From Prochlorococcus sp. scB243_496M6 (GTDB taxonomy: Bacteria > Cyanobacteriota > Cyanobacteriia > PCC-6307 > Cyanobiaceae), in NCBI GenBank assembly GCA_000635535.1, contig JFMF01000451.1, positions 1-12,212 on the forward strand: a stretch of DNA of 12,212 bases, read 5' to 3'. Positions 1 to 12,212 of this stretch are shown one piece after another. Position numbers and translations under genes: made by a program. The first letter of the stretch is position 1, and each line of letters starts with the position of its first letter. The notes below the pieces were generated by a model that saw nothing but the letters and a program-made list of their open reading frames with translations, had not been told where the DNA came from and did not search any database.

Positions 1-344
1 TTACTAACGGAAGAAACAATTTTTTCAAAACACTTAGGATCGTTTAAGGCTAATTGAGCAAGCATTTTTCTATTTATAATAATTTCTGAATTTTTCATGC
101 CATTTATCAACTTGCTATAATTTGTTCCATTTATCCTGGCAGATGCGTTAATTCTAGAAATCCAAAGTCTTCTAAAATCTCTTTTTCTTCTTCTTCTATC
201 CCTATAAGCATTACAAAGAGCTTTCATCACTCTTTGATTTGCTGTCCTGAAAAGATTTTTGTTACCGCCTCTAAAACCTTTTGCAAGATTTAAGATTTTG
301 TTTCTTCTTTTTCTGGCTATGTTGCCTCTTTTTACGCGTGCCAT
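1..344 (-). CDS. rplT: 50S ribosomal protein L20 (3' end cut by window edge)
   Basis: L20 binds 23S rRNA early in assembly of the large ribosomal subunit. Reading the minus strand from the ATG at 342-344 gives [18 protein letters not shown], then AKGFRGG, an Arg/Lys-rich [17 protein letters not shown] block, and the [18 protein letters not shown] motif. All of these are characteristic of L20. The frame stays open to the left edge: 114 codons are complete and two bases of codon 115 remain. L20 in this group is about 115 residues, so only the last codon or so and the stop are missing. It lies 28 bp downstream of rpmI on the same strand, the usual L35-L20 pair; infC is not adjacent. The very basic composition fits an rRNA-binding protein. 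Identification is secure. Confidence 0.96.
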
Positions 345-372
345 GAATATCTAATAAAAATTGGTTAAAGAT

Positions 373-570
373 TTATGCGTATGGAATCATTAATCTTACA
401 TTATCAGCATCTCTTTCATCAACTACTGCTTTTGTTGATAGATGTCTTTTTAATTTTGTGCTTTTATGATCAAGTAAATGATTATGGAAAGCTCTTCTTC
501 TCATGAATTTACCCGTCGCAGTAGCTTTAAATCTTTTGGCAGCTGATTTACGAGTTTTTAGTTTAGACAT
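373..570 (-). CDS. rpmI: 50S ribosomal protein L35
   Basis: Small basic protein of the large ribosomal subunit, 65 residues, the normal L35 length. The sequence opens [20 protein letters not shown], followed by [17 protein letters not shown] and KRHLS, the conserved L35 signature. The ATG at 568-570 is the only sensible start. It is the first gene of the minus-strand rpmI-rplT pair and diverges from the SpoIID-like gene across a 91-bp gap. In many bacteria an infC-rpmI-rplT operon is autoregulated by L20; here infC is absent upstream, so any such control would have to work from the short leader. I see no clear L20-binding pseudoknot in it. Confidence 0.97.
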
Positions 571-596
571 TTAAGTCAAATGTGTTTAATTAGGAT

Positions 597-625
597 AATC
601 TAAACCTTTATACGCATTGGTGCAA
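597..625 (-). promoter_or_regulatory. candidate promoter for rpmI-rplT
   Basis: Read on the minus strand, TTGCAC (620-625) and TAGATT (597-602) are separated by 17 bp, a sigma70-like layout upstream of rpmI. A second possible -10, TATAAA, lies at 607-612 but has no good -35. In a genome this AT-rich such matches are common by chance. The divergent gap must nevertheless hold promoters for both directions. Confidence 0.25.
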
Positions 626-661
626 ATTAAAGTTTTTAATTGATTAAGAAAGTTCTAACTT

Positions 662-2200
662 ATGAAACTTAAATTTGCCTTTTTATACTTATTTTTAGGA
701 TGTATTTCTCTCTTTTTAATAACCATTAAATTTACTTCAAATGTCAAAGGAGAAGAGTTGCAAAAGGTTGAACTCAATAATGAAATTAAAAAAGGAAAAT
801 TTTTAATTGGTTTAAAGCAATATTTAGGCGGGGAGAATGACAGTTTTTCAAAAAAAAAGAATATCAAATTTATCACTGATAAAGGTTTTTTAAATCTGAT
901 ATCTTCCAACGGTATTAAACATAAATCAAAAGAGATTAATATTAGTTGGGTGGATATACCCATAAAAGATCCAAAAACAATCGAAAGAATTATTTTTGGT
1001 CCTTTTGCTAGCTATGAATCAGCAAAAAAACAATCAGAGAAACTTAAAGATAAGGGATTTAAGACGATTATTGCCTACCCTAAAAATTGGGAAGTATGGA
1101 TTCCATTTGAAGATGATCTTCCAGAGTTTGAATTAAAAAATAAGATTTTCAGAAAAATAAAAAATTTTCAAATTACTCCTGTTCTTAGAAGTGAATATAG
1201 TCTTATGAAACTCGAAGGACCTATACATATTTATGCTCAAGAGGACATAACAATAAATGGTGTCAATTTTGGCAAAAATTTTTATTTATTAAAAGATTTG
1301 TATGGAACTTGGACATTAGTTCAAAAAATTGAATTTGATGATTATTTGGCAGGTGTTTTGCCATATGAAATTGGACCGAATTCTCCTTTAGAAGCACTCA
1401 AAGCTCAAGCAGTTATTGCAAGAACTTGGGGAATATTTAATTCTGATAGATTTAATATGGACAAATATCATTTATGTATTACCACTCAATGTCAAGTTTA
1501 TAAACCTCCTAAAATTACAAATAAAAACGTGAAAAAAGCTATAGAAGCAACTTCAAATTTAATTCTCACTTATAGAAATCAACCAATTAATGCTTTTTAC
1601 CATGGTTCTAATGGTGGCGTATCTGCTTCTGCAGGCGAGTCTTGGCAAATTCAAGATTTTTCTTATTTCAATTCGAACATTGATGGTTCAAAATCATTAA
1701 ATAAAATTTTTAAACTTCCAATTACAAATGAATCTGATTTAAATAATTTTTTAGATTTTGATAAAGAACGGTTTTATGGGAGTAATCATTCTCTTTTTCG
1801 ATGGAATAAGAAAATTTCTAGTCTTGAAATTAAAGAAAAGTTAATTAAAAACAAACTTATAAATATCAATGACGATGTTTTGGATATAAATTCTATTGAA
1901 CGTGGGTCGAGTGGGAGAGTGACAAAATTGGAAATACGAACGGAAAAAGTTAATAAATCTATTACTCTAGTTAAAGATGATATTCGACGGGTATTAAATT
2001 TTATACCTAGTAATTTGTTTACTATTAATAAATTAAGTGATGATTTATGGCTTTTGAGAGGAGGAGGCTTCGGTCATGGTGTAGGTTTATCTCAGTCAGG
2101 AGCGATTGAAATGGCTAAATTAGGATTTTCTTATGAACAAATCTTGAATCATTACTATCGAAAAGCAAAACTGAAAAAATTTGAGATATTGTCTCAATGA
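662..2200 (+). CDS. exported SpoIID/LytB-domain protein (amidase-enhancer type)
   Basis: Predicted exported cell-wall protein of 512 residues. Residues 1-27 form a hydrophobic signal peptide or anchor after MKLK. Residues about 105-141 (IIFGPFASYESAKKQSEKL...) look like a SPOR-type peptidoglycan-binding repeat, though this is tentative. The SpoIID domain follows: DDYLAGVLPYEIGP with Glu236 at the catalytic position, EALKAQAVIARTW (244-256), a Cys272-Cys277 pair (CITTQCQVY), FYHGSNGG (His314), and the C-terminal GGGFGHGVGLSQSGA at 467-481. In Bacillus, SpoIID is a lytic transglycosylase that cuts glycan strands bare of stem peptides. Cyanobacteria do not sporulate, so the role here is probably in peptidoglycan turnover or division. 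It is followed after 26 bp by a membrane glycosyltransferase, suggesting co-transcription. The ATG at 662 starts directly at the signal peptide. Domain call is firm; the exact reaction is inferred. Confidence 0.9.
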   Translation: MKLKFAFLYLFLGCISLFLITIKFTSNVKGEELQKVELNNEIKKGKFLIGLKQYLGGENDSFSKKKNIKFITDKGFLNLISSNGIKHKSKEINISWVDIPIKDPKTIERIIFGPFASYESAKKQSEKLKDKGFKTIIAYPKNWEVWIPFEDDLPEFELKNKIFRKIKNFQITPVLRSEYSLMKLEGPIHIYAQEDITINGVNFGKNFYLLKDLYGTWTLVQKIEFDDYLAGVLPYEIGPNSPLEALKAQAVIARTWGIFNSDRFNMDKYHLCITTQCQVYKPPKITNKNVKKAIEATSNLILTYRNQPINAFYHGSNGGVSASAGESWQIQDFSYFNSNIDGSKSLNKIFKLPITNESDLNNFLDFDKERFYGSNHSLFRWNKKISSLEIKEKLIKNKLININDDVLDINSIERGSSGRVTKLEIRTEKVNKSITLVKDDIRRVLNFIPSNLFTINKLSDDLWLLRGGGFGHGVGLSQSGAIEMAKLGFSYEQILNHYYRKAKLKKFEILSQ

Positions 2201-2226
2201 AAGTTAAGTAATTAAAATTTACTTTT

Positions 2227-3528
2227 ATGAGTAAGGGTTTTTATAAAAATCGAAGATTGAAGTCATTTATATTTCTTAGTGCTTGTTTTTTTATAGCTTT
2301 TATTCCTCATGCTTTAAATATAGAATATTTCTTTTACATTATATTGACTCTTTCTTTTGTGATTGTTTTTTATGGGTTAATAGTTATTTCTAGAAATGTC
2401 AAAAGGAACAACGTTGTAAACATTGTAAGTAGAAGAATTAGTAATAAAGAGTTACCTTTGCTTGATATTTTAGTCGCTGCTAGAGATGAAGAGAATGTCA
2501 TAGCAAGATTAGTTGAGAGATTATTTAGTTTAGATTATCCAACAAATAAATTAAATATTTACATTATCGATGATGGTAGCTCTGATAAGACGCCTTTAAT
2601 TTTAGATCGATTAGCTAGACAATATGACAAGCTAAAAGTCATAAGTCGTTCTCCAAATGCAGGAGGTGGAAAGTCAGGAGCTTTAAATTATGCCTTAAAG
2701 TTTACTCATGGTGAATGGTTATTAGTTTTGGATGCTGATGCTGAATTAAAAAAAGATTCTTTGATAAGGTTATTTAGTTTTGTAGAAGAGGGTGATTGGT
2801 CTGCAGTTCAACTAAGAAAATCAGTAACAAATGTAAGTAAGAATTTTTTAACTTCTTGTCAGTCAATGGAAATGGCTATGGACGCAATTTTTCAATATGG
2901 AAGATTATCAGTTGCTGGAGTTTCTGAACTAAGGGGAAATGGCCAATTAATTAATAAAGAAACATTATTGGCATGTGGTTCTTTTAATGAAGATACAGTT
3001 ACAGATGATCTTGATTTGAGTTTAAGATTATTATTATCAAAAGCTAGAATTGGAATCTTGTGGGATCCTCCAGTTATGGAGGAAGCAGTTGAGAATTTAA
3101 ATGCTTTATTAGCGCAAAGGCAAAGATGGGCAGAGGGGGGTTTGCAAAGATTCTTTGATTATGGAGATCAATTATTTACTAATAAAATTGATTATTTGCA
3201 AAAATTTGATTTAACTTACTTTTTCATCTTGCAATATGCACTTCCAATAATTTCTATTTTTGATTTATTTTTCAGTATTGCTTTCTTAGATTCACCAATT
3301 TACTGGCCTATTTCATTTACAGCTTTTATGTTATCTGGAATTGCGTTTTGGTACGGTTCTTCTTGTAAAAGCGAAGTACCAGTATTGCAAAAAAGCAATT
3401 TCTTGATGGTATTTGTCTCGGTTTTTTATTTATCACATTGGTTTTTAGTAATCCCTTGGGTAACAATAAAGATGTCTATTTTTCCCAAAAAGATACTTTG
3501 GAGAAAAACTATTCACACTGGAGTTTAA
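2227..3528 (+). CDS. membrane family 2 glycosyltransferase, processive-synthase-like
   Basis: Integral membrane glycosyltransferase of 433 residues with a GT-A catalytic core. Two hydrophobic segments lie near the N-terminus (about 13-29 and 33-55). The cytoplasmic domain shows Asp87 (AARDEEN), IIDDGSSDKT (Asp115/116), GGGKSGALNYAL, the DXD-like LDADAEL (169-173), TDDLDLSLRL (259-268) with the catalytic-base Asp, and QRQRW (297-301), the QxxRW acceptor motif. Hydrophobic segments follow at about 330-353, 358-376 and 392-414. This layout matches processive GT2 enzymes of the cellulose, hyaluronan and poly-N-acetylglucosamine synthase type, which polymerise a sugar and move it across the membrane. 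Sugar donor and product cannot be told from sequence. Its partner upstream is the SpoIID-domain protein, so an envelope or exopolysaccharide role is plausible. A short-chain lipid glycosyltransferase is the main alternative. Confidence 0.88.
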   Translation: MSKGFYKNRRLKSFIFLSACFFIAFIPHALNIEYFFYIILTLSFVIVFYGLIVISRNVKRNNVVNIVSRRISNKELPLLDILVAARDEENVIARLVERLFSLDYPTNKLNIYIIDDGSSDKTPLILDRLARQYDKLKVISRSPNAGGGKSGALNYALKFTHGEWLLVLDADAELKKDSLIRLFSFVEEGDWSAVQLRKSVTNVSKNFLTSCQSMEMAMDAIFQYGRLSVAGVSELRGNGQLINKETLLACGSFNEDTVTDDLDLSLRLLLSKARIGILWDPPVMEEAVENLNALLAQRQRWAEGGLQRFFDYGDQLFTNKIDYLQKFDLTYFFILQYALPIISIFDLFFSIAFLDSPIYWPISFTAFMLSGIAFWYGSSCKSEVPVLQKSNFLMVFVSVFYLSHWFLVIPWVTIKMSIFPKKILWRKTIHTGV

Positions 3529-3529
3529 T

Positions 3530-5195
3530 TTATTCATCAAGGTCTATAATTTCGCCATTAAAAAAATTTGCTAAGTTTTTTGAGCTATCTTCATAAGCCT
3601 CCTCGTTAGATATTTTTGGTGATGAATTAGTTTTTGGTTCTATTTTTTTTAATGGTCTATGATTATTTACTTCATTTTGGGTCATTTCTGGAGTATTTGT
3701 TGGGTTACTTTTATTTAAATTTTTGGTTGAGAAATTAAGTATTATTTGATCTCCAAATATCTTTTTTAAAGTATTTTCAATTATCACTTTTCTGCTTTTA
3801 ATCATATTTTCCCAATTTGGAGATAATGCAATTGTTATTTTCTCCGAATCAAAACTTTCAAGTTCGGCTTGTTGTGAAAGTAACATTCTTGTTGATGGTA
3901 ACTCTACCTTAGAAAGAATTAATTCCCATTTATCTTCTAAATTATTTGATCCAGGATTAGTTTGGTTATTGTCAGAAATATTTTCAAAACTTTCTTTTTC
4001 AAGAACTGCGAATTTTTCTAATTTTTCGTCTTTTTTTTCGATTAATTCATCGCGAGCTATCTCATTTTTGATACTTGGTTTTTGACTTTTATTAGAAATA
4101 TTTTCTTTATTAAAAATTGCAGTGTTTTTTCTACTTTCATGATTCTCCTCAGTAGTATTATTTTTACTTTCTTGCTTATTTTTAAAACTATTTATTTCTT
4201 GATTACCTAGAAGCCCAGTTAAATGTATTTCAAGCCAAAGCCTTGGATTATCACTTGATTTGATTTGATATTCAATATTTCTCAGATTATTATGCCAATT
4301 AATTATTGTTGATTTATTTATTTTTTTTGAGATTTTATCCAATTCATCTTGAAAGTCATCAGACGTATAATAAAGATCTGAATATTTATTATTTGTAGTG
4401 TGTAGTAGTAGATCTCTTGTTATATTTAATAATCCGATAATTATTTGATGAGGTTCGTTTCCTGCATCATATAGTTTGTTGCAGGTGATAATTAATGACT
4501 CTGGATTATTTTCAACTAATGATTTAATCAGATTTGTTAATTCACTTTCAGATACTTCTCCTAGGAGGTTTTGGATATTATTAATTGTTATTCCCTCTGG
4601 TAAAAGATTCAATTGTTCAAGGAGGCTTTGTGCATCTCTCATCCCTCCATTAGATCTTTTTGCAATCATTTTTAAGGCCTGCACTTCATACTCAATGGAT
4701 TCTTTTTCGGCGATTTCTGATAAATGTTGAAAAATATCACTTGGGCTTATTCTTCTAAAATCAAACTTTTGGCATCTACTTTTTATTGTATTTAATACTC
4801 TCTCAGGATTTGTCGTCGCGAGGATAAATACCACTCTTGAGGGAGGTTCTTCAATAGTTTTTAGTAAAGCATTTGAAGCTGCCGTTGAAAGCATATGACA
4901 TTCATCAATAACATATACTTTCCATCTCGCTTGAGTAGGGGCAAATCTCGCTCTTTCTATAATTTCTCTTATATTTTCTACTCCTGTATTTGATGCTGCA
5001 TCAATCTCGATAATATCTAGAGCGCTCCCATCTGTAATTTGTCTACATAAGTCACATTTACAACAAGGAGTTATCGTAGGTTGGTCGAATGCCTGGCAAT
5101 TTAGAGATTTTGCAAATATTCTTGCACTTGATGTTTTTCCAGTCCCTCTTGGACCATTAAAGAGATATGCAGGAGCAATTCTTTTTGTTAATTGC
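3530..5195 (-). CDS. dnaX: DNA polymerase III tau/gamma subunit, 5'-truncated at a junction
   Basis: Clamp-loader ATPase that loads the sliding clamp and couples polymerase to helicase. From right to left the frame shows [10 protein letters not shown], Walker [11 protein letters not shown] (about 5126-5155), zinc-module cysteines (5096-5098 and four within 5045-5065, CCKCDLC), [16 protein letters not shown], Walker [10 protein letters not shown] (4892-4912), LLKTIEEPP, sensor 1 LATTNPE, and the SRC arginine finger. A Lys/Asn/Glu-rich linker lies at about 3960-4200, followed by a C-terminal tau-like segment ending at TAA 3530-3532. No intein is present. The N-terminal 35 or so residues (the KYRP and VGQ motifs of the family) are missing: right of about 5195 the frame no longer resembles DnaX and meets TGA at 5249-5251. 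The first in-frame ATG, 4892-4894, lies inside Walker B and cannot be the true start. The downstream neighbour converges with one base between stops. Identity is certain; completeness is not. Confidence 0.93.
4028..4039 (-). other. possible frameshift or slippage site in dnaX (A8 run)
   Basis: The dnaX message reads GAA AAA AAA GAC here. The eight A's (4031-4038) therefore contain a perfect A_AAA_AAA slippery heptamer in the zero frame. It falls about 420 residues into the expected full protein, in the linker where other bacteria shorten tau to gamma. A -1 shift would end at TGA about ten codons later, and a +1 shift at TAG after three codons. No Shine-Dalgarno stimulator or strong downstream stem is visible, and A8 runs occur elsewhere in this window (for example 3643-3650). 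Confidence 0.25.
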
Positions 5196-5198
5196 GAT
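5186..5198. other. chimeric junction between dnaX and thiG
   Basis: Left of this point the minus strand encodes DnaX (…[12 protein letters not shown]). Right of it the plus strand encodes ThiG beginning at [18 protein letters not shown] (5196 onward). Both homologies stop abruptly inside their proteins within a few bases of each other, leaving no room for a start codon, ribosome binding site or promoter for either gene. The breakpoint is bracketed by eye from family motifs, so it may shift by several bases. Confidence 0.8.
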
Positions 5199-5750
5199 GA
5201 GGCAGTCAGAATAGCAAGTTTAGGTAGAGAACTTGCAAAATTATCTGGTCAAGAAGAAAATAATTTTGTGAAGTTAGAAGTTATTCCTGACAAAAAGTAT
5301 TTGCTACCAGATCCAATTGAAACTCTTAAAGCAGCCGAAATTTTAATAAAAAAGGGTTTCGCTGTACTTCCTTATATCAATGCAGATCCTATTCTTGCAA
5401 AAAGACTAGAAGAAATAGGTTGTGCAACTGTAATGCCATTGGGCTCGCCCATAGGCTCCGGGCAAGGTTTGTTAAATTTATCAAATATAAGGATAATTAT
5501 TGAGAATGCAAAAGTGCCAGTAATAATTGACGCAGGAATTGGGGTGCCTAGTGAAGCTTCTCAAGCTATGGAAATTGGAGCTGATGGTGTCTTAATCAAT
5601 AGTGCAATAGCACAAGCTGCAAATCCTCCTCTAATGGCTAAAGCGATAAATTATAGTGTGAAGGCTGGCAGGCAAGCTTTTCTGGCAGGAAGAATTAAAA
5701 AACAAGACTTTGCAATAGCAAGTTCGCCAGAAAAAAACATATCTATCTAA
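5196..5750 (+). CDS. thiG: thiazole synthase ThiG, 5'-truncated fragment
   Basis: ThiG condenses 1-deoxy-D-xylulose 5-phosphate, dehydroglycine and ThiS-thiocarboxylate into the thiazole phosphate of thiamine. Recognisable sequence starts at 5196 ([16 protein letters not shown]) and runs in one frame through [75 protein letters not shown] and [10 protein letters not shown] to TAA at 5748-5750. The Lys at 5271-5273 (FVKLEV) aligns with the imine-forming Lys96 of the Bacillus enzyme. About 184 residues are present, so 75-85 N-terminal residues, the first strands and helices of the TIM barrel, are missing. A GTG at 5268-5270 is an internal Val (NNFVK), one codon before the catalytic Lys, not a credible start. 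The frame continues open to the left, but there it is antisense to dnaX. Identity is certain; the fragment is unlikely to be functional as it stands. Confidence 0.9.
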
Positions 5751-5761
5751 TTCTCTTTATT

Positions 5762-5812
5762 AAGCAAAGTTTAAAAAGAAAGTAAAAATTTATTATTTGC
5801 TTTTATTTATCG
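5762..5812 (+). terminator. candidate terminator after thiG
   Basis: Twelve bases past the thiG stop, AAGCAAA (5762-5768) and TTTGCTT (5796-5802) form a perfect 7-bp inverted repeat around a 27-base A/T-rich loop, followed by the T-rich TTATTTAT. The long loop makes it weaker than a classic intrinsic terminator. Confidence 0.35.
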
Positions 5813-5910
5813 TATTAAGAAAGAAGATTTGAAACTATTTACAATGTTTTTTCGCAAAGTGGAAGCACACTGTAGTAATTTAATAAATATATTATGAATC
5901 TTTTAATTCT

Positions 5911-5914
5911 GGAG
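5911..5914 (+). promoter_or_regulatory. ribosome binding site supporting the sqdB GTG start
   Basis: GGAG sits six bases before GTG at 5921, a good Shine-Dalgarno match in an AT-rich genome. It supports the non-ATG start, after which the protein opens at once with the Rossmann strand MKVIVLGGDG. Confidence 0.6.
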
Positions 5915-5920
5915 TTCTGA

Positions 5921-7114
5921 GTGAAAGTAATTGTTCTAGGTGGAGATGGTTTTTGCGGTTGGCCTTGTGCGGTGAATTTAGCAGAGCAAAATCATGATGT
6001 TATTATTGTCGACAATTTAAGTCGTAGAAAAATTGATATTGATCTAGAGGTAGAATCTTTAACTCCAATTGCTTCGATAACAGAACGACTTTCTGCATGG
6101 GAAGAGATTGGAGGTAAGCCTATGAGATTTCTTAATATGGATATCTCTAAGCAATATCAAAAATTGCTCAATTTGCTAATTGATGAAAAACCAGATTCCG
6201 TAATCCATTTTGCAGAACAAAGAGCAGCACCTTACTCGATGAAATCCAGTTTCACCAAAAGATATACAGTGGATAATAATGTTAATGGCACCCACAACCT
6301 TCTTGCTGCAATAGTAGAGAGTAATTTAGATATTCATGTTGTTCATTTAGGAACAATGGGAGTCTATGGATATGGATCACATAGAGGTGCAACAATTCCA
6401 GAAGGTTATCTAAAAGTTGAAGTTCCACAACCAGATGGAAGCCGATTTGAAGAAGAAATATTACACCCTGCAAGTCCAGGTAGTGTTTACCATATGACTA
6501 AAACCTTAGATCAATTATTATTTCTCTACTACAACAAAAATGATCTTGTAAGGATTACTGATTTACATCAAGGCATTGTTTGGGGAACAAATACAGAAGC
6601 AACTTTAAAAGATCCTAGATTGACAAACCGATTTGACTATGACGGAGATTATGGAACTGTTTTAAACAGATTTCTAATGCAAGCTGCAATTGGATATCCA
6701 TTAAGTGTGCATGGGACAGGCGGGCAAACAAGAGCATTTATACATATAAAAGACTCTGTAAAATGCGTACAACTTGCTCTTGAAAATCCTCCAAAATCTG
6801 GAGAAAGAGTTAAAATTTTTAATCAAATGACTGAGAGTCATCAAGTTGGAGAACTAGCTAAAAAAGTTGCTTCTCTAACAGGAGCTGATATTAATTATTT
6901 ACCAAACCCAAGGAATGAAGCGGTAGAAAATGATCTAATTGTTGATAATAAATGTTTTATAGAATTAGGTTTAAACCCAACGACTCTTGAAACTGGCTTA
7001 TTAGAAGAAGTTGTTGAAGTTGCCAAAAAATACTCCAATAGATGTGATCTTAAGCGCATACCTTGTGTTTCATCCTGGACTAAAAAACAAGCTGAGGCAA
7101 TAAAGACAAATTAA
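5921..7114 (+). CDS. sqdB: UDP-sulfoquinovose synthase
   Basis: Converts UDP-glucose and sulfite to UDP-sulfoquinovose, the head-group donor for the thylakoid sulfolipid SQDG. The 397-residue protein is an extended short-chain dehydrogenase of the SqdB/SQD1 type. It shows the NAD-binding VLGGDGFCGWPCAVNL (5-20) and VDNLSRR (30-36), the family-specific HFAEQRAAPYSM (96-107), Thr145 in HLGTMGVYGYG, and Tyr190/Lys194 in VYHMTK, the T/Y/K catalytic triad. DLHQGIVWGT and the long TEATLKDPRLTNRFDYDG segment are typical of SqdB and not of general epimerases. The GTG start is backed by a GGAG site. The 170-bp gap upstream must carry its promoter; TATATT at 5888-5893 is a -10-like match without a good -35. 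sqdX follows after 27 bp on the same strand, giving a two-gene sulfolipid operon. SQDG replaces phospholipid in picocyanobacteria of phosphate-poor water. Confidence 0.97.
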   Translation: MKVIVLGGDGFCGWPCAVNLAEQNHDVIIVDNLSRRKIDIDLEVESLTPIASITERLSAWEEIGGKPMRFLNMDISKQYQKLLNLLIDEKPDSVIHFAEQRAAPYSMKSSFTKRYTVDNNVNGTHNLLAAIVESNLDIHVVHLGTMGVYGYGSHRGATIPEGYLKVEVPQPDGSRFEEEILHPASPGSVYHMTKTLDQLLFLYYNKNDLVRITDLHQGIVWGTNTEATLKDPRLTNRFDYDGDYGTVLNRFLMQAAIGYPLSVHGTGGQTRAFIHIKDSVKCVQLALENPPKSGERVKIFNQMTESHQVGELAKKVASLTGADINYLPNPRNEAVENDLIVDNKCFIELGLNPTTLETGLLEEVVEVAKKYSNRCDLKRIPCVSSWTKKQAEAIKTN

Positions 7115-7141
7115 AATTTCTAAAATAGTTACTTAAAGAAA

Positions 7142-8275
7142 GTGAAAATTGCATTGTTTACTGAAACTTTTTTACCTAAAGTTGATGGCATAGTCACAAG
7201 ACTGACTAAAACGATTGAATTTTTAATAAAAAATGGTGATGAAGTTATAATTTTTTGTCCCGAAGGATGTCCAGAATCATATATGGGTGCAACTGTAGTT
7301 GGAGTTGCTGCAATGCCATTACCCTTATACCCAGAGTTGAAGCTTGGTTTACCGGGACCTGCAGTCTCAGATAAGTTAGAAAAATTTAACCCAGATTTGA
7401 TACATGTTGTTAATCCAGCTGTACTTGGCTTAGGTGGCATTTGGTTAGCAAAAACTAATAATATTCCTTTAATTGCCAGTTACCATACTCATCTTCCAAA
7501 ATATCTGGAACATTACGGTATGGGTATGTTAGAACCACTTTTGTGGGAATTACTTAAAGCAGCTCATAATCAAGCCTTGTTAAATTTATGTACTTCCACC
7601 GCTATGGTCAATGAGTTAAAAGATAAAGGCATTCAAAGGACTGCTCTATGGCAAAGGGGAGTAGATACTTTCAGTTTCAGACCAGATTTGAGAAGTGAGA
7701 AAATGAGAAAAAAATTATTTGGGGAATATAACGACGCTAATTACTTATTGATTTATGTAGGAAGATTATCTGCAGAAAAACAAATTGAGAGAATTAAACC
7801 AGTCTTAGAAAGTATTCCTAATGCTTGCCTAGCACTTGTAGGTGACGGACCATATAGAAACCAGCTTGAAAAAATCTTCGAAAATACAAAGACTAATTTC
7901 ATAGGATACTTATCTGGCGATGAACTTGCTAGCGCCTATGCCTCTGGAGATATATTTTTATTTCCATCTAGTACAGAAACACTTGGGTTAGTTTTACTAG
8001 AAGCAATGGCAGCAGGATGTCCAGTTATCGGAGCCAACAAGGGGGGAATTCCAGATATTATTAGCGATGGGATTAATGGTTGTTTATATGATCCTGATAA
8101 AAAAGATAATGGGGAACAAAGTTTGATTGAAGCGACAAAAAAAATTCTAGAGAATGAAGATAAAAGAGAAGTTATGAGAAAAGAGGCACGAAATGAAGCA
8201 GAAAAATGGGATTGGAATCAAGCAACACTACAACTGCAAAATTATTATGAAGATACTCTCAAAAAAATAGATTAA
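7142..8275 (+). CDS. sqdX: sulfoquinovosyltransferase (SQDG synthase)
   Basis: Transfers sulfoquinovose from UDP-sulfoquinovose to diacylglycerol, the last step of SQDG synthesis, at the membrane. The 377-residue protein is a GT-B fold retaining GT4 enzyme. The N-terminal domain begins MKIALFTETFLPKVDGIVTRL, and ASYHTHLPKYLEHYGMG (112-128) and QRGVDTFSF (171-179) are features of the SqdX and mannosyltransferase branch. The C-terminal domain has YVGRLSAEKQ (Arg208 and Lys213, donor phosphate contacts), LVGDGPYR, and FPSSTETLGLVLLEAMAAG with the EX7E pair Glu279/Glu287. The start is GTG at 7142-7144, preceded by AAAGAA; the next ATG would remove the first strand. It follows sqdB by 27 bp, which fixes its role: without that neighbour a mannosyltransferase would be the main alternative. 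It converges with a small minus-strand gene 11 bp away. Confidence 0.95.
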   Translation: MKIALFTETFLPKVDGIVTRLTKTIEFLIKNGDEVIIFCPEGCPESYMGATVVGVAAMPLPLYPELKLGLPGPAVSDKLEKFNPDLIHVVNPAVLGLGGIWLAKTNNIPLIASYHTHLPKYLEHYGMGMLEPLLWELLKAAHNQALLNLCTSTAMVNELKDKGIQRTALWQRGVDTFSFRPDLRSEKMRKKLFGEYNDANYLLIYVGRLSAEKQIERIKPVLESIPNACLALVGDGPYRNQLEKIFENTKTNFIGYLSGDELASAYASGDIFLFPSSTETLGLVLLEAMAAGCPVIGANKGGIPDIISDGINGCLYDPDKKDNGEQSLIEATKKILENEDKREVMRKEARNEAEKWDWNQATLQLQNYYEDTLKKID

Positions 8276-8286
8276 ATTAATCTTAA

Positions 8287-8535
8287 TTATGCTACGTGTG
8301 GAGGCGTGGGATCATTATACGAACTTAAAGGAAGTATTAGAGTAGCGATATTTTGATTCTTTTCAGGTCTTTTTTTCTTTGAAAATTTTTTACCAAAGGG
8401 TACTCTAATAACATTAGTTCCCTCAATGGAACAAATGTTTGAGTTATCTCCTGAAAAATTATTGACAAAATTTGGTAAATTTACGTTTTTAACTGGCAGG
8501 TGCTTAACATTACCAGATTTGAAATCTTTGGTCAT
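8287..8535 (-). CDS. small protein of unknown function, 82 residues
   Basis: I do not recognise this protein. It starts at ATG 8533-8535 and ends at TAA 8287-8289. It is basic and Asn/Lys-rich: MTKDFKSGNVKHLPVKNVNL at the start, a hydrophobic-basic middle (NVIRVPFGKKFSKKKRPEK), then ATLILPLSSYND and a proline-rich tail PTPPHVA. There is no signal peptide, membrane segment or cysteine pair beyond a single Cys in the middle. No gene overlaps it; it fills the gap between sqdX (convergent, 11 bp) and gcvP (same strand, 129 bp), and it has no strong ribosome binding site. The ordered, non-shadow position supports a real lineage-specific gene. It could be a chance ORF, but 82 codons without a stop in sequence this AT-rich, with varied amino acid content, argue for coding. 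Confidence 0.6.
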   Translation of the reverse strand: MTKDFKSGNVKHLPVKNVNLPNFVNNFSGDNSNICSIEGTNVIRVPFGKKFSKKKRPEKNQNIATLILPLSSYNDPTPPHVA

Positions 8536-8650
8536 AGCTTCAAATACCCCAAAAAATTTGATGCTCGAATATTTTAATAAAAAAATTTAAAAAAATTCTA
8601 TAAGAAAATATTAAATTTTTATTCTCACTGATAATAACTAAGTAAATATT

Positions 8651-8664
8651 AGGACGCTAGTCCT
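8651..8664 (-). terminator. weak hairpin directly after gcvP stop
   Basis: AGGAC-TAGC-GTCCT forms a 5-bp stem with a 4-base loop, adjacent to the gcvP stop codon on the minus strand. The following bases are A/T-rich (AATATTTAC) but not a clean T run, so its action as a terminator is doubtful. Confidence 0.3.
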
Positions 8665-11574
8665 TTAAGCACATTTTTTTTCTTCGAAAGTCTCGCCTTG
8701 ATTTACATTGCAAGAACAAATTAAATTGCGATCACCATATGCATTATTGATCCTAGAAACTGAAGACCAAAACTTAATAGACGTTGGAGTTTTATAAGGA
8801 AAAGAAGCTTTTTCTTTTGAATAAGGATAATGCCAATTATCAGCAATTAACTCTTTCAGTGTATGGGGAGCGTTACTTATTACATTATTATTCTTTAATG
8901 CAACATTTTTTTCTATTTCGCTGATTTCTTCTCCAATCAATAGCATAGCCTCGCAAAATCTATCCAATTCAACCAAGCTTTCACTTTCAGTAGGCTCTAT
9001 CATTATCGTCTCTGGAACAGGCCAACTTATAGTTGGGGCATGAAAACTATAATCTATTAATCGTTTAGCTAAATCATTTACACTCAAACCAGTTTTGGAT
9101 TTTAAATCCCTAAAATCTAAAATACATTCATGTGCGACAAAATTATTTTTTCCTTTATAAAGAATCTTGAATTTATGCTTTAAAGAATGCGCAATATAAT
9201 TTGCAGATAAAATTGCATGCGCAGTTGCTTTCCTTAAACCACTAAAACCAGCCATTTTTATGTACATCCAACTTATTGGAAGAATACTTGCACTCCCATG
9301 CTTGGCAGAAGATACGTAATTGGAACTAATAGATAAATTATTATCCATTAAAGAATGAGTAGGAAGAAATGGAGTTAAAGTTTCTGATGCAGCAACTGGA
9401 CCTACTCCTGGACCACCACCTCCATGTGGAATGCAGAATGTTTTATGTAAATTCAAATGACAAACGTCAACACCATAATTTCCCGGTTTACATAATCCAA
9501 CCTGAGCGTTCAAATTCGCTCCATCTAAATAGACAAATCCTCCTACAGAGTGAATTAAATCACATATATTTCTGATTTGTAATTCAAAAACTCCATGAGT
9601 AGAGGGATAAGTCAACATAAGAGCCCCTATTTGGTTATCAAATTTCTTGACCTTGATTGACAAATCTTGAAAATCAATATTTCCTTCGTTATCACATTCA
9701 ACAGTTAACACGTCAAAACCTGCCATAACTGCACTAGCAGGATTTGTTCCATGAGCACTTTTTGGAATTAAACATTTTTTTCTAAACAGTTCACCTTTTG
9801 ATTCAAAATAAGAATTTATTGCCAATAAGCCTGCAAACTCTCCTTGAGAGCCCGCATTTGGTTGAAAAGAAACTGATTTTAAACCAACTATCTCACCTAT
9901 CCATTTTTCTAGGTCAGATATAATTTTTGAATAGCCTTTAGATTGATCTGGTGGTGAAAAAGGATGAATGGAAGATAAATTAGCCCAAGAGACTGGATTT
10001 AACTCTGCTGCAGAATTTAACTTCATGGTACAGCTTCCCAATGGCATCATCCCATCTACCAAAGAAAAATCTTTTTCTGCAAGTCGGAATATATATCTCA
10101 TTAATTCAGTTTCACTTTGGTAATTTGTGAATATATCTTGCTGCATCCATGCACTTGATCTCAAAGCTAAACTTTCAAGATGAAATTCTTTATCAAATTT
10201 TATATGCTCTAAATCTTCTTCTTTATCTATAAGGTTTGCTATGAAAGTCAAAATATCTTTTATTTCTTTTTCATTACTAAGCTCATCTAAAGAGATCCCA
10301 AAGCCAGTTGAATTTTCAATAGTTGATCCTAACGGCAAAATTCTTAAGTTATAGCCATTTTTTAATGCTTCATTATGGATCCTCTGGGAGTGCTCAGAAT
10401 AAACATCAACACTATCGAATCTAATCCCATCAGGAATATCAAAACCTAAAGCGGCTAAACTTGATTCTAAATTTATTCTCAACTCAACTAATCTCTTAGC
10501 AATTTGCGTTAATCCAGAGGGTCCATGATAAATAGCATAAAAAGAAGAAATTATGGCTAACAATGATTGAGCAGTACAAATATTACTAGTGGCCTTTTCT
10601 CTTCTAATATGTTGCTCTCTTGTTTGCAATGCTAATCTTAGTGACTTTTCTCCATTTTTAGATAGAGTTTGCCCAACTATTCTTCCAGGTATCAGCCTTT
10701 TATATTTTTCGCTACAAGCAAAATATGCTGCATGGGGGCCACCAAAACCCATTGGAACACCAAATCTTTGCATACTACCTACGGCTACATCAACACCAAA
10801 TTCAGAAATTGGTTTAATCAAAACTTGTGCTAATGGATCAATAGATGCCGTAACAATAATTTCTGATCTATGTGCTTGGGATATTAGGAATGTAGGATCA
10901 TATAATTGTCCATTTTTACCAGGTAGTTGCAACAACATTCCAAAAACATCATGATGATTAGGAAGGTTGCTTTGAGTAAAGCGTTTTAAGGATATTCCCA
11001 AAGGTTTTGCTCTGGTTTGTAGAACATTAAAAGTATGATCAAAAACATTTGACTCCACTAAGTACACTTTTGAAGATTTATTTTTTCTTGCAGAAAAACT
11101 CATGGCCATGGCTTCTGCTGCTGCAGTACCCTCATCCAACAAAGATGCATTGGCGACAGGGAATCCGGTTAGTTCACAAACAATAGTCTGAAAATTAAAT
11201 AGAGCTTCTAATCTTCCTTGTGCAATTTCTGCTTGATATGGAGTATAAGACGTATACCACCTTGGATTTTCAAGAACATGTCTTTGGATTACTTTAGGCA
11301 TATGATTGTCGTAATAACCAAGGCCTATAAGTGATCTCATTTTAGTATTTTTATTCGCAATCTCTTCTAATTCTTTTAAAGCCTCCTTTTCTGAACAACC
11401 TTGGGGCAATATTTCTGAAGATTTATCTTTAAGCTGAATATCTTCTGGAATAACTTCATTTATAAATTGATCAATATTATTAAAACCAAGCTTATTCAAC
11501 ATAAATCCTTCATCATTATCTCCTAACCCAAGATGCCTATCTATAAATAAATCAGACCCAAATTTAGATGTCAT
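8665..11574 (-). CDS. gcvP: glycine dehydrogenase (decarboxylating), glycine cleavage P protein
   Basis: PLP enzyme that decarboxylates glycine and passes the aminomethyl group to the lipoyl arm of GcvH. At 969 residues it is the long single-chain form with both halves fused. The N-terminal half shows DRHLG (12-16), PRWYTSYTPYQAEIAQGRLE, LLDEGTAAAEAM and GSMQRFGVPMGFGGPHAAYF. The C-terminal half shows MPLGSCTMKLN, FQPNAGSQGEFAGL, IPKSAHGTNPASA, YLDGANLNAQVG and HLNLHKTFCIPHGGGGPG, in which Lys711 is the PLP-binding lysine (codon 9442-9444), and ends near SCNVNQGE. The ATG at 11572-11574 precedes the usual short leader to RHLG. It lies 44 bp downstream of gcvH on the same strand, so P and H proteins are co-expressed. 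In cyanobacteria this system handles glycine from photorespiratory 2-phosphoglycolate and supplies C1 units. No glycine-riboswitch tandem is visible in the short upstream gap. Confidence 0.98.
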   Translation of the reverse strand: MTSKFGSDLFIDRHLGLGDNDEGFMLNKLGFNNIDQFINEVIPEDIQLKDKSSEILPQGCSEKEALKELEEIANKNTKMRSLIGLGYYDNHMPKVIQRHVLENPRWYTSYTPYQAEIAQGRLEALFNFQTIVCELTGFPVANASLLDEGTAAAEAMAMSFSARKNKSSKVYLVESNVFDHTFNVLQTRAKPLGISLKRFTQSNLPNHHDVFGMLLQLPGKNGQLYDPTFLISQAHRSEIIVTASIDPLAQVLIKPISEFGVDVAVGSMQRFGVPMGFGGPHAAYFACSEKYKRLIPGRIVGQTLSKNGEKSLRLALQTREQHIRREKATSNICTAQSLLAIISSFYAIYHGPSGLTQIAKRLVELRINLESSLAALGFDIPDGIRFDSVDVYSEHSQRIHNEALKNGYNLRILPLGSTIENSTGFGISLDELSNEKEIKDILTFIANLIDKEEDLEHIKFDKEFHLESLALRSSAWMQQDIFTNYQSETELMRYIFRLAEKDFSLVDGMMPLGSCTMKLNSAAELNPVSWANLSSIHPFSPPDQSKGYSKIISDLEKWIGEIVGLKSVSFQPNAGSQGEFAGLLAINSYFESKGELFRKKCLIPKSAHGTNPASAVMAGFDVLTVECDNEGNIDFQDLSIKVKKFDNQIGALMLTYPSTHGVFELQIRNICDLIHSVGGFVYLDGANLNAQVGLCKPGNYGVDVCHLNLHKTFCIPHGGGGPGVGPVAASETLTPFLPTHSLMDNNLSISSNYVSSAKHGSASILPISWMYIKMAGFSGLRKATAHAILSANYIAHSLKHKFKILYKGKNNFVAHECILDFRDLKSKTGLSVNDLAKRLIDYSFHAPTISWPVPETIMIEPTESESLVELDRFCEAMLLIGEEISEIEKNVALKNNNVISNAPHTLKELIADNWHYPYSKEKASFPYKTPTSIKFWSSVSRINNAYGDRNLICSCNVNQGETFEEKKCA

Positions 11575-11618
11575 GTTAAAAAGTTTTCTTTAAAATAGCT
11601 CTTTTTAAAAGGTTTGAC

Positions 11619-12008
11619 TCATTTTGGTACAACCTTTGATTGATATTCCTCAGAAGTCATCAAATCAGCAATTGTTGCTTTTAATTCTGGTTTCAAAATG
11701 ACTAACCAACCGTCTCCAATCGGATCATTCTGTAAAAGCTCAGGGTTCTCAATAACACTTTCATTTACTGATACTATTTCCCCTGAAAAAGGCAGATAGA
11801 CTTCCTCTACAGCCTTTACTGATTCTATTGTTCCAAAAGTATCGCCTTTATCTAAGGTCGCCCCTTCATCAGCTAAATCAACAAAAACAATATCTCCTAA
11901 TTGATCTATAGCAAATTCACTAACTCCAATTTTTAATAATCCATTTTCTTCCAAGACATATTCATGAGTATCAGCATAGTTGAGGTTGTCTGGAAACTTG
12001 TAAGACAT
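11619..12008 (-). CDS. gcvH: glycine cleavage system H protein
   Basis: Lipoyl carrier that shuttles the aminomethyl intermediate between the P, T and L proteins. The 129 residues match the family length. Visible features are NYADTHEYV near the N-terminus, the GVSEFAIDQLGDIVFVDLA strand region, GTIESVKAVEEVYLP with the lipoylated Lys65, then SGEIVSVNESVIENPELLQNDP and GDGWLVILKP. The ATG at 12006-12008 follows the stop of the upstream gene by only two bases (TAA TC ATG), which suggests translational coupling. gcvP follows after 44 bp. gcvT, lpd and the lipoylation enzymes are not in this window. Confidence 0.98.
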   Translation of the reverse strand: MSYKFPDNLNYADTHEYVLEENGLLKIGVSEFAIDQLGDIVFVDLADEGATLDKGDTFGTIESVKAVEEVYLPFSGEIVSVNESVIENPELLQNDPIGDGWLVILKPELKATIADLMTSEEYQSKVVPK

Positions 12009-12010
12009 GA

Positions 12011-12212
12011 TTAAGTAGATAAAGGAAGTAGAGAATCCTTTGAAATTAATTTTTCCTCTAATAGTTCACATAATAATCGAATTAATGCAATTTTGATGTG
12101 AGCTATGTGAGAACCACCTTGAACAAAAATATTGTAAGGATCTCTTAGAGGAGCATCAGCAGAAAATTCACTTGTACTACCTTCAATAAAGGTACCTCCA
12201 GCCATTAATAAT
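12011..12212 (-). CDS. C-terminal end of aluminium-resistance / methionine gamma-lyase-like PLP protein (partial)
   Basis: Only the last 67 or so codons are inside the window; the frame is open to the right edge and continues beyond it. The ending shows AGGTFIEGSTSEFSADAPLR, then DPYNIFVQGGSHIAHIKIAL. These match the C-terminal signature of the family annotated as aluminium resistance protein or methionine gamma-lyase family (YnbB-like), a fold-type I PLP protein related to Cys/Met metabolism enzymes: GGTF, a SADAPLR-type motif and the QGG motif. The Met at 12203-12205 is internal to the GGTF motif region, not a start. The true substrate of the family is not settled. It is the upstream gene of gcvH, two bases away, and probably in one transcript with gcvH and gcvP. 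Family call is from motif memory and moderately sure. Confidence 0.75.
   Translation of the reverse strand, partial: LLMAGGTFIEGSTSEFSADAPLRDPYNIFVQGGSHIAHIKIALIRLLCELLEEKLISKDSLLPLST

Follow-up and report, generated by a model that had tools for sequence, protein, structure and literature searches.

In the contig JFMF01000451.1 of Prochlorococcus sp. scB243_496M6 (assembly GCA_000635535.1), of which positions 1–12,212 were analysed as a whole (“the window”, 12,212 nucleotides), the minus-strand gene dnaX abuts the plus-strand gene thiG at one common junction at positions 5186–5192, both genes lacking their 5' ends. We are highly confident that this junction is a laboratory artefact, namely an inverted intramolecular chimera that arose when the DNA of a single Prochlorococcus cell was amplified by phi29 multiple displacement amplification (MDA) and that was carried into the assembly. 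Most likely, the living cell possesses the ordinary gene order clpX-dnaX-glycosyltransferase-spoIID-rpmI-rplT-TPR-thiG-sqdB, with both genes intact. An MDA-amplified cell as the origin of the window, intact copies of both genes in that cell, and the molecular steps described below are what we infer. As an artefact, the junction would have no biological significance, but it illustrates clearly how a chimera from amplification can mimic the loss or rearrangement of genes in a single-cell contig.

The initial annotation had placed a common dnaX/thiG junction within positions 5150–5275, and the join at 5186–5192 falls in that range. The reference was the nearest genome among those compared (G001; 46% of the sampled 31-letter words in common with the window), whose locus is denoted L004. 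Window positions 1–5190 align gaplessly to L004 10,727–5538 on the minus strand (96.74% identity), and positions 5183–12,212 align to L004 11,555–18,586 on the plus strand (96.77%), so that the two arms correspond to a single 13 kb region of G001 but run in opposite directions. The features of the window are as follows:

1–5190, minus strand: inverted arm (gapless alignment to L004)
3–344, minus strand: rplT, cut by the window edge (open reading frame; named by eye)
373–570, minus strand: rpmI (open reading frame; named by eye)
662–2200, minus strand: SpoIID/LytB-domain gene (SpoIID_LytB by NCBIfam, above the cut-off)
2227–3528, minus strand: glycosyltransferase (open reading frame; named by eye)
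3530–5190, minus strand: dnaX remnant, retaining the P-loop GPRGTGKT; no start before the ATG at 4894
5183–12,212, plus strand: normally oriented arm (alignment to L004)
5186–5192, no strand: very probably chimeric junction with microhomology, TGTTA (5 bp, G001 alleles) or TGTTAAT (7 bp, commoner dnaX allele)
5186–5750, plus strand: thiG remnant (frame and homology comparison with the relative)
5921–7114, plus strand: presumably sqdB (NCBIfam matches below the cut-off together with the usual gene order)
7142–8275, plus strand: presumably an sqdX-like glycosyltransferase (NCBIfam matches below the cut-off together with the usual gene order)
8665–11,574, minus strand: gcvP (above the NCBIfam cut-off)
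11,619–12,008, minus strand: gcvH (named by eye)
12,011–12,211, minus strand: end of a further gene (open reading frame)

The gene order of L004 is tig, clpP, clpX, dnaX, a glycosyltransferase gene (minus), spoIID (minus), rpmI, rplT, a TPR-like gene, thiG, sqdB, an sqdX-like gene, gcvP (minus), and gcvH (minus). Of these names, those other than dnaX, SpoIID, gcvP, and thiG are our assumptions, made by eye or from the usual gene order; the genes upstream of dnaX, which we take to be clpX, clpP, and tig, were named by eye. The dnaX and thiG genes of G001 have the same orientation, and 6017 bp separate their junction sites. The window, hence, corresponds to the dnaX-to-rplT stretch (~5 kb) inverted and attached inside thiG, while the TPR-like gene, the 5' starts of thiG and dnaX, and clpX are absent. 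The earlier remark that clpX, clpP, and tig, expected near dnaX, are missing here is right as far as the window is concerned, and the relative does carry them upstream of dnaX; however, their absence here is due solely to the sequence leaving dnaX midway. At the other end of this arm, window position 1 falls in the last codons of rplT, just ahead of the TPR-like gene and the natural thiG start.

Homology of the minus-strand dnaX to its relatives ends at about position 5190, at TKRIAPAY, and that of the plus-strand thiG starts at about 5186. In agreement with the initial annotation, alignment to the relative's protein reveals that DnaX lacks its first ~35 residues (IAPAYLF corresponds to residue 39 of the relative's DnaX, numbering from MPNN). 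The remnant scores 778.6 bits against the NCBIfam family NF011510 (DNA polymerase III gamma/tau; cut-off 593), with the best stretch starting at profile position 35. Beyond the junction, the dnaX frame reads on through antisense thiG to the TGA at 5249–5251 without an ATG or GTG, as had been stated, or a TTG; its earliest in-frame start is the ATG at 4894. ThiG, for which a loss of ~75–85 residues had been proposed, lacks ~77 of 264 N-terminal residues by alignment to the relative's protein, being homologous from about V78/N79, and the motif DEAVRI starts at residue 81 of 264. Read backwards, its frame stays open within antisense dnaX as far as a stop at 4932; past the junction, the earliest in-frame start is the GTG at 5268. 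The truncation of both genes at one junction is confirmed. The join is sharp, since window positions 5193–5300 agree with the sequence upstream in the relative's dnaX at only 27% of 108 ungapped positions, which is approximately chance level. thiG was identified by its sequence similarity to ThiG chains of solved structure, the relative's full-length ThiG matching the solved ThiG 1xm3 over residues 5–262. A full-length Prochlorococcus ThiG (L004 11,328–12,122) has no ThiG match in NCBIfam release 20.0, yet matches solved ThiG chains strongly.

Gene order between dnaX and thiG was compared in related genomes, as the initial annotation had suggested, and besides in G001 the natural arrangement was found almost throughout. 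It is present, with the sites 6002–6031 bp apart, in 65 of the 66 public loci that have both sites (among 80 loci round thiG, one of which, L081, is taken to be G001 itself), the sole exception, L102, being rearranged at another place. All 24 selected genomes likewise have the natural orientation with the sites ~6.0 kb apart; these were taken from the matches listed and comprise at most five contigs at a completeness of at least 95% (G025, with one contig, 90% completeness, and one match, was left out).

The junction itself was not found in any relative. Allowing three mismatches at most, a degenerate pattern of the junction occurs in none of the 266 genomes examined from the genus, and 0 of the 80 public loci span the junction of the window; in its exact form, the degenerate pattern occurs in no viral contig, and megablast of window positions 4400–6000 against phage records yielded no match. 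A 400-base query round the junction matched 237 of the 266 genomes, while 29 matched on neither side; among the matches listed, each covers one side and none crosses the junction. With an 80-base query under a strict limit, 61 of the 266 genomes matched, coverage among the matches listed being at most 51 of 80 bases, and the longest of these, from G193, represents normal dnaX sequence (L117). Absence from the 266 genomes says less than the number suggests, because many of them are incomplete and 29 are without a match to either side.

The neighbourhood was further used as a control for artefacts by aligning the 80 public loci (1,456,278 bases in total) to 46 kb of G001, a join being counted where 100 bases or more lie on both sides of it. 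Over their available length, 75 loci are collinear with G001, among them all three MIT isolates (L046, L088, L101), and no direct jump of more than 300 bases was found in the 80 loci. The remaining five carry one inverted join each, every one at a different place:

L048 (AG-424-A03): inverted join at ~571–582; sites 1.1 kb apart; BLAST overlap of 12 bases
L054 (AG-349-N23): inverted join at ~15,486–15,490; sites 0.6 kb apart; BLAST overlap of 5 bases
L091 (HOT208_60m_808M21): inverted join at ~919–924; sites 4.1 kb apart; BLAST overlap of 6 bases
L093 (AG-347-M23): inverted join at ~361–375; sites 1.8 kb apart; BLAST overlap of 15 bases including mismatches, ~7 exact
L102 (AG-461-O03): inverted join at ~4516–4519; sites 5.8 kb apart; BLAST overlap of 4 bases

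Inverted joins were found in 0 of the 20 selected genomes that were aligned (the 24 without G024, G027, G034, and G091), each forming one collinear piece over 20 kb. Names that we read as those of single-cell genomes are borne by 77 of the 80 closest loci, including all five with inverted joins. The names AG-424, AG-461, and HOT208 presumably denote single-cell plates. In Berube et al. (2018; PMC6122165), the AG-347 plate is described as single-cell and AG-349 is tabled; the Prochlorococcus cells of that study were amplified by MDA or WGA-X, with a benchmark of 1.5 misassemblies per 100 kb. At that rate, ~22 misassemblies would be predicted in 1,456,278 bases, whereas five inverted joins were observed, which is a misfit. 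The five public contigs are likely uncorrected amplification chimeras in public records. Since 5 of 80 related loci over this region contain a join of this type, a conserved gene that looks truncated in a single-cell assembly should be compared with the gene order of relatives.

Turning to the bases shared at the junction, the longer string TGTTAAT occurs at 50 of the 66 dnaX sites obtained and at 64 of the 81 thiG sites; G001 is counted twice here (as L004 and as L081), and from 15 of the 81 sequences no dnaX site was obtained. When inverted joins were placed at random, within 9 kb, in the same AT-rich region, they had an overlap of at least 5 bp in 0.9% and of at least 7 bp in 0.12% of the trials.

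An MDA chimera is supported by the inverted join, the spacing of 6.0 kb, the microhomology of 5–7 bp, the absence from the relatives examined, and the comparable joins in other contigs; thus, of the two origins that the initial annotation had proposed, the MDA or assembly chimera is strongly supported, while the second, a deletion between divergent genes, is contradicted by the co-directional genes of the relative. In molecular terms, a growing 3' end copying one strand would have been displaced inside dnaX (or, for the other strand, inside thiG), would have annealed via TGTTA or TGTTAAT to a displaced strand of opposite polarity 6.0 kb away, and would then have been extended in the opposite direction. 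Against this reading, the join lies 5.2 kb inside the window, which implies that the assembler accepted it; presumably, reads supported it, as would be the case after an early event in MDA.

The alternatives concern, above all, an event in the living cell. Considered as one broad reading, it is very unlikely that template switching at microhomology rearranged or duplicated the dnaX–thiG region in inverted form in the genome of one Prochlorococcus lineage, which kept intact copies of the genes elsewhere. More specifically, a real inversion of ~6.0 kb with breakpoints inside dnaX and thiG would make the window its right-hand junction, and the geometry of the window is, indeed, that expected of the right breakpoint; a balanced inversion of this kind gives an identical junction, and the two arms are equally diverged from G001, as in one lineage. 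We nevertheless regard it as highly improbable. It would remove the starts of thiG and of dnaX, a gene that is essential in bacteria, and would be private to this genome, with only 5–7 bp of shared bases and no counterpart in the 266 genus genomes and the 80 loci; moreover, the same region in other contigs has other one-off inverted joins. An inherited inversion was sought in the 266 genomes (by DNA and by pattern) and in the 80 loci and was rejected, with no spanning match among those listed. A junction common to more than one isolate or cell, which would be expected of an inherited event, though not required of a private one, was seen in none of the 266 genomes and in none of the 80 loci.

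Equally improbable is a real inverted duplication through template switching at the replication fork, with intact dnaX and thiG elsewhere in the cell. Such an event would leave the cell viable and produce the same junction, and the microhomology may suit template switching in vivo as well as MDA; however, none was found in the relatives searched, nothing favours it over an artefact, and MDA needs no extra event. Slightly less probable still is a wrong join made by the assembly software alone, with no chimeric DNA behind it, which would also be an artefact, with the same outcome for both genes. Usual assembler overlap or k-mer lengths are well above 5–7 bp, and with a shared string of only this length, the junction should have existed as a physical molecule. 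The fusion of two divergent genes by a deletion, finally, can practically be dismissed, since beyond the juxtaposition itself nothing speaks for it, dnaX and thiG are co-directional in the relative, and the glycosyltransferase gene, spoIID, rpmI, and rplT from between them are still in the window in inverted orientation, which contradicts a simple deletion, as it cannot give an inverted interval.

The inverted intramolecular MDA chimera, by contrast, has well-described precedents. Lasken and Stockwell (2007; PMC1855051) studied a single E. coli cell and found 406 of its 475 MDA chimeras to be inverted, 337 of which joined sites less than 10 kb apart; complementary bases were present at 93.5% of the inverted junctions below 10 kb, and the explanation offered is that displaced 3' ends prime on nearby displaced strands. 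In most cases, 2–21 complementary bases are found at the junctions of MDA inverted chimeras. The junction of the window shows the sequence-level hallmarks of such inverted chimeras, that is, opposite orientation at equal identity, sites less than 10 kb apart, and junction microhomology, and, as in those described there, the intervening sequence is lost. However, the E. coli chimeras were established from reads of one cell with a known genome, while that of the window is deduced from one contig compared with relatives.

Comparable to the window, too, are the five joins in L048, L054, L091, L093, and L102, which are located in the same neighbourhood, inverted, and of short overlap (sites 0.6–5.8 kb apart). 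The breakpoints of the five differ from that of the window; therefore, no one inherited rearrangement is common to them.

For Prochlorococcus itself, Rodrigue et al. (2009; PMC2731171) report ~1 chimera per 10 kb in single-cell reads, with inversion frequency and distance in agreement with Lasken and Stockwell, as well as two single-cell assemblies with seven chimeric contigs apiece, one wrong join being backed by several reads and possibly stemming from an early MDA event. While in that study the reference genome, MED4, was known and the window is judged against the genomes of relatives, the window resembles those chimeric contigs in the genus concerned, in the kind of artefact, and in a join that survived assembly.
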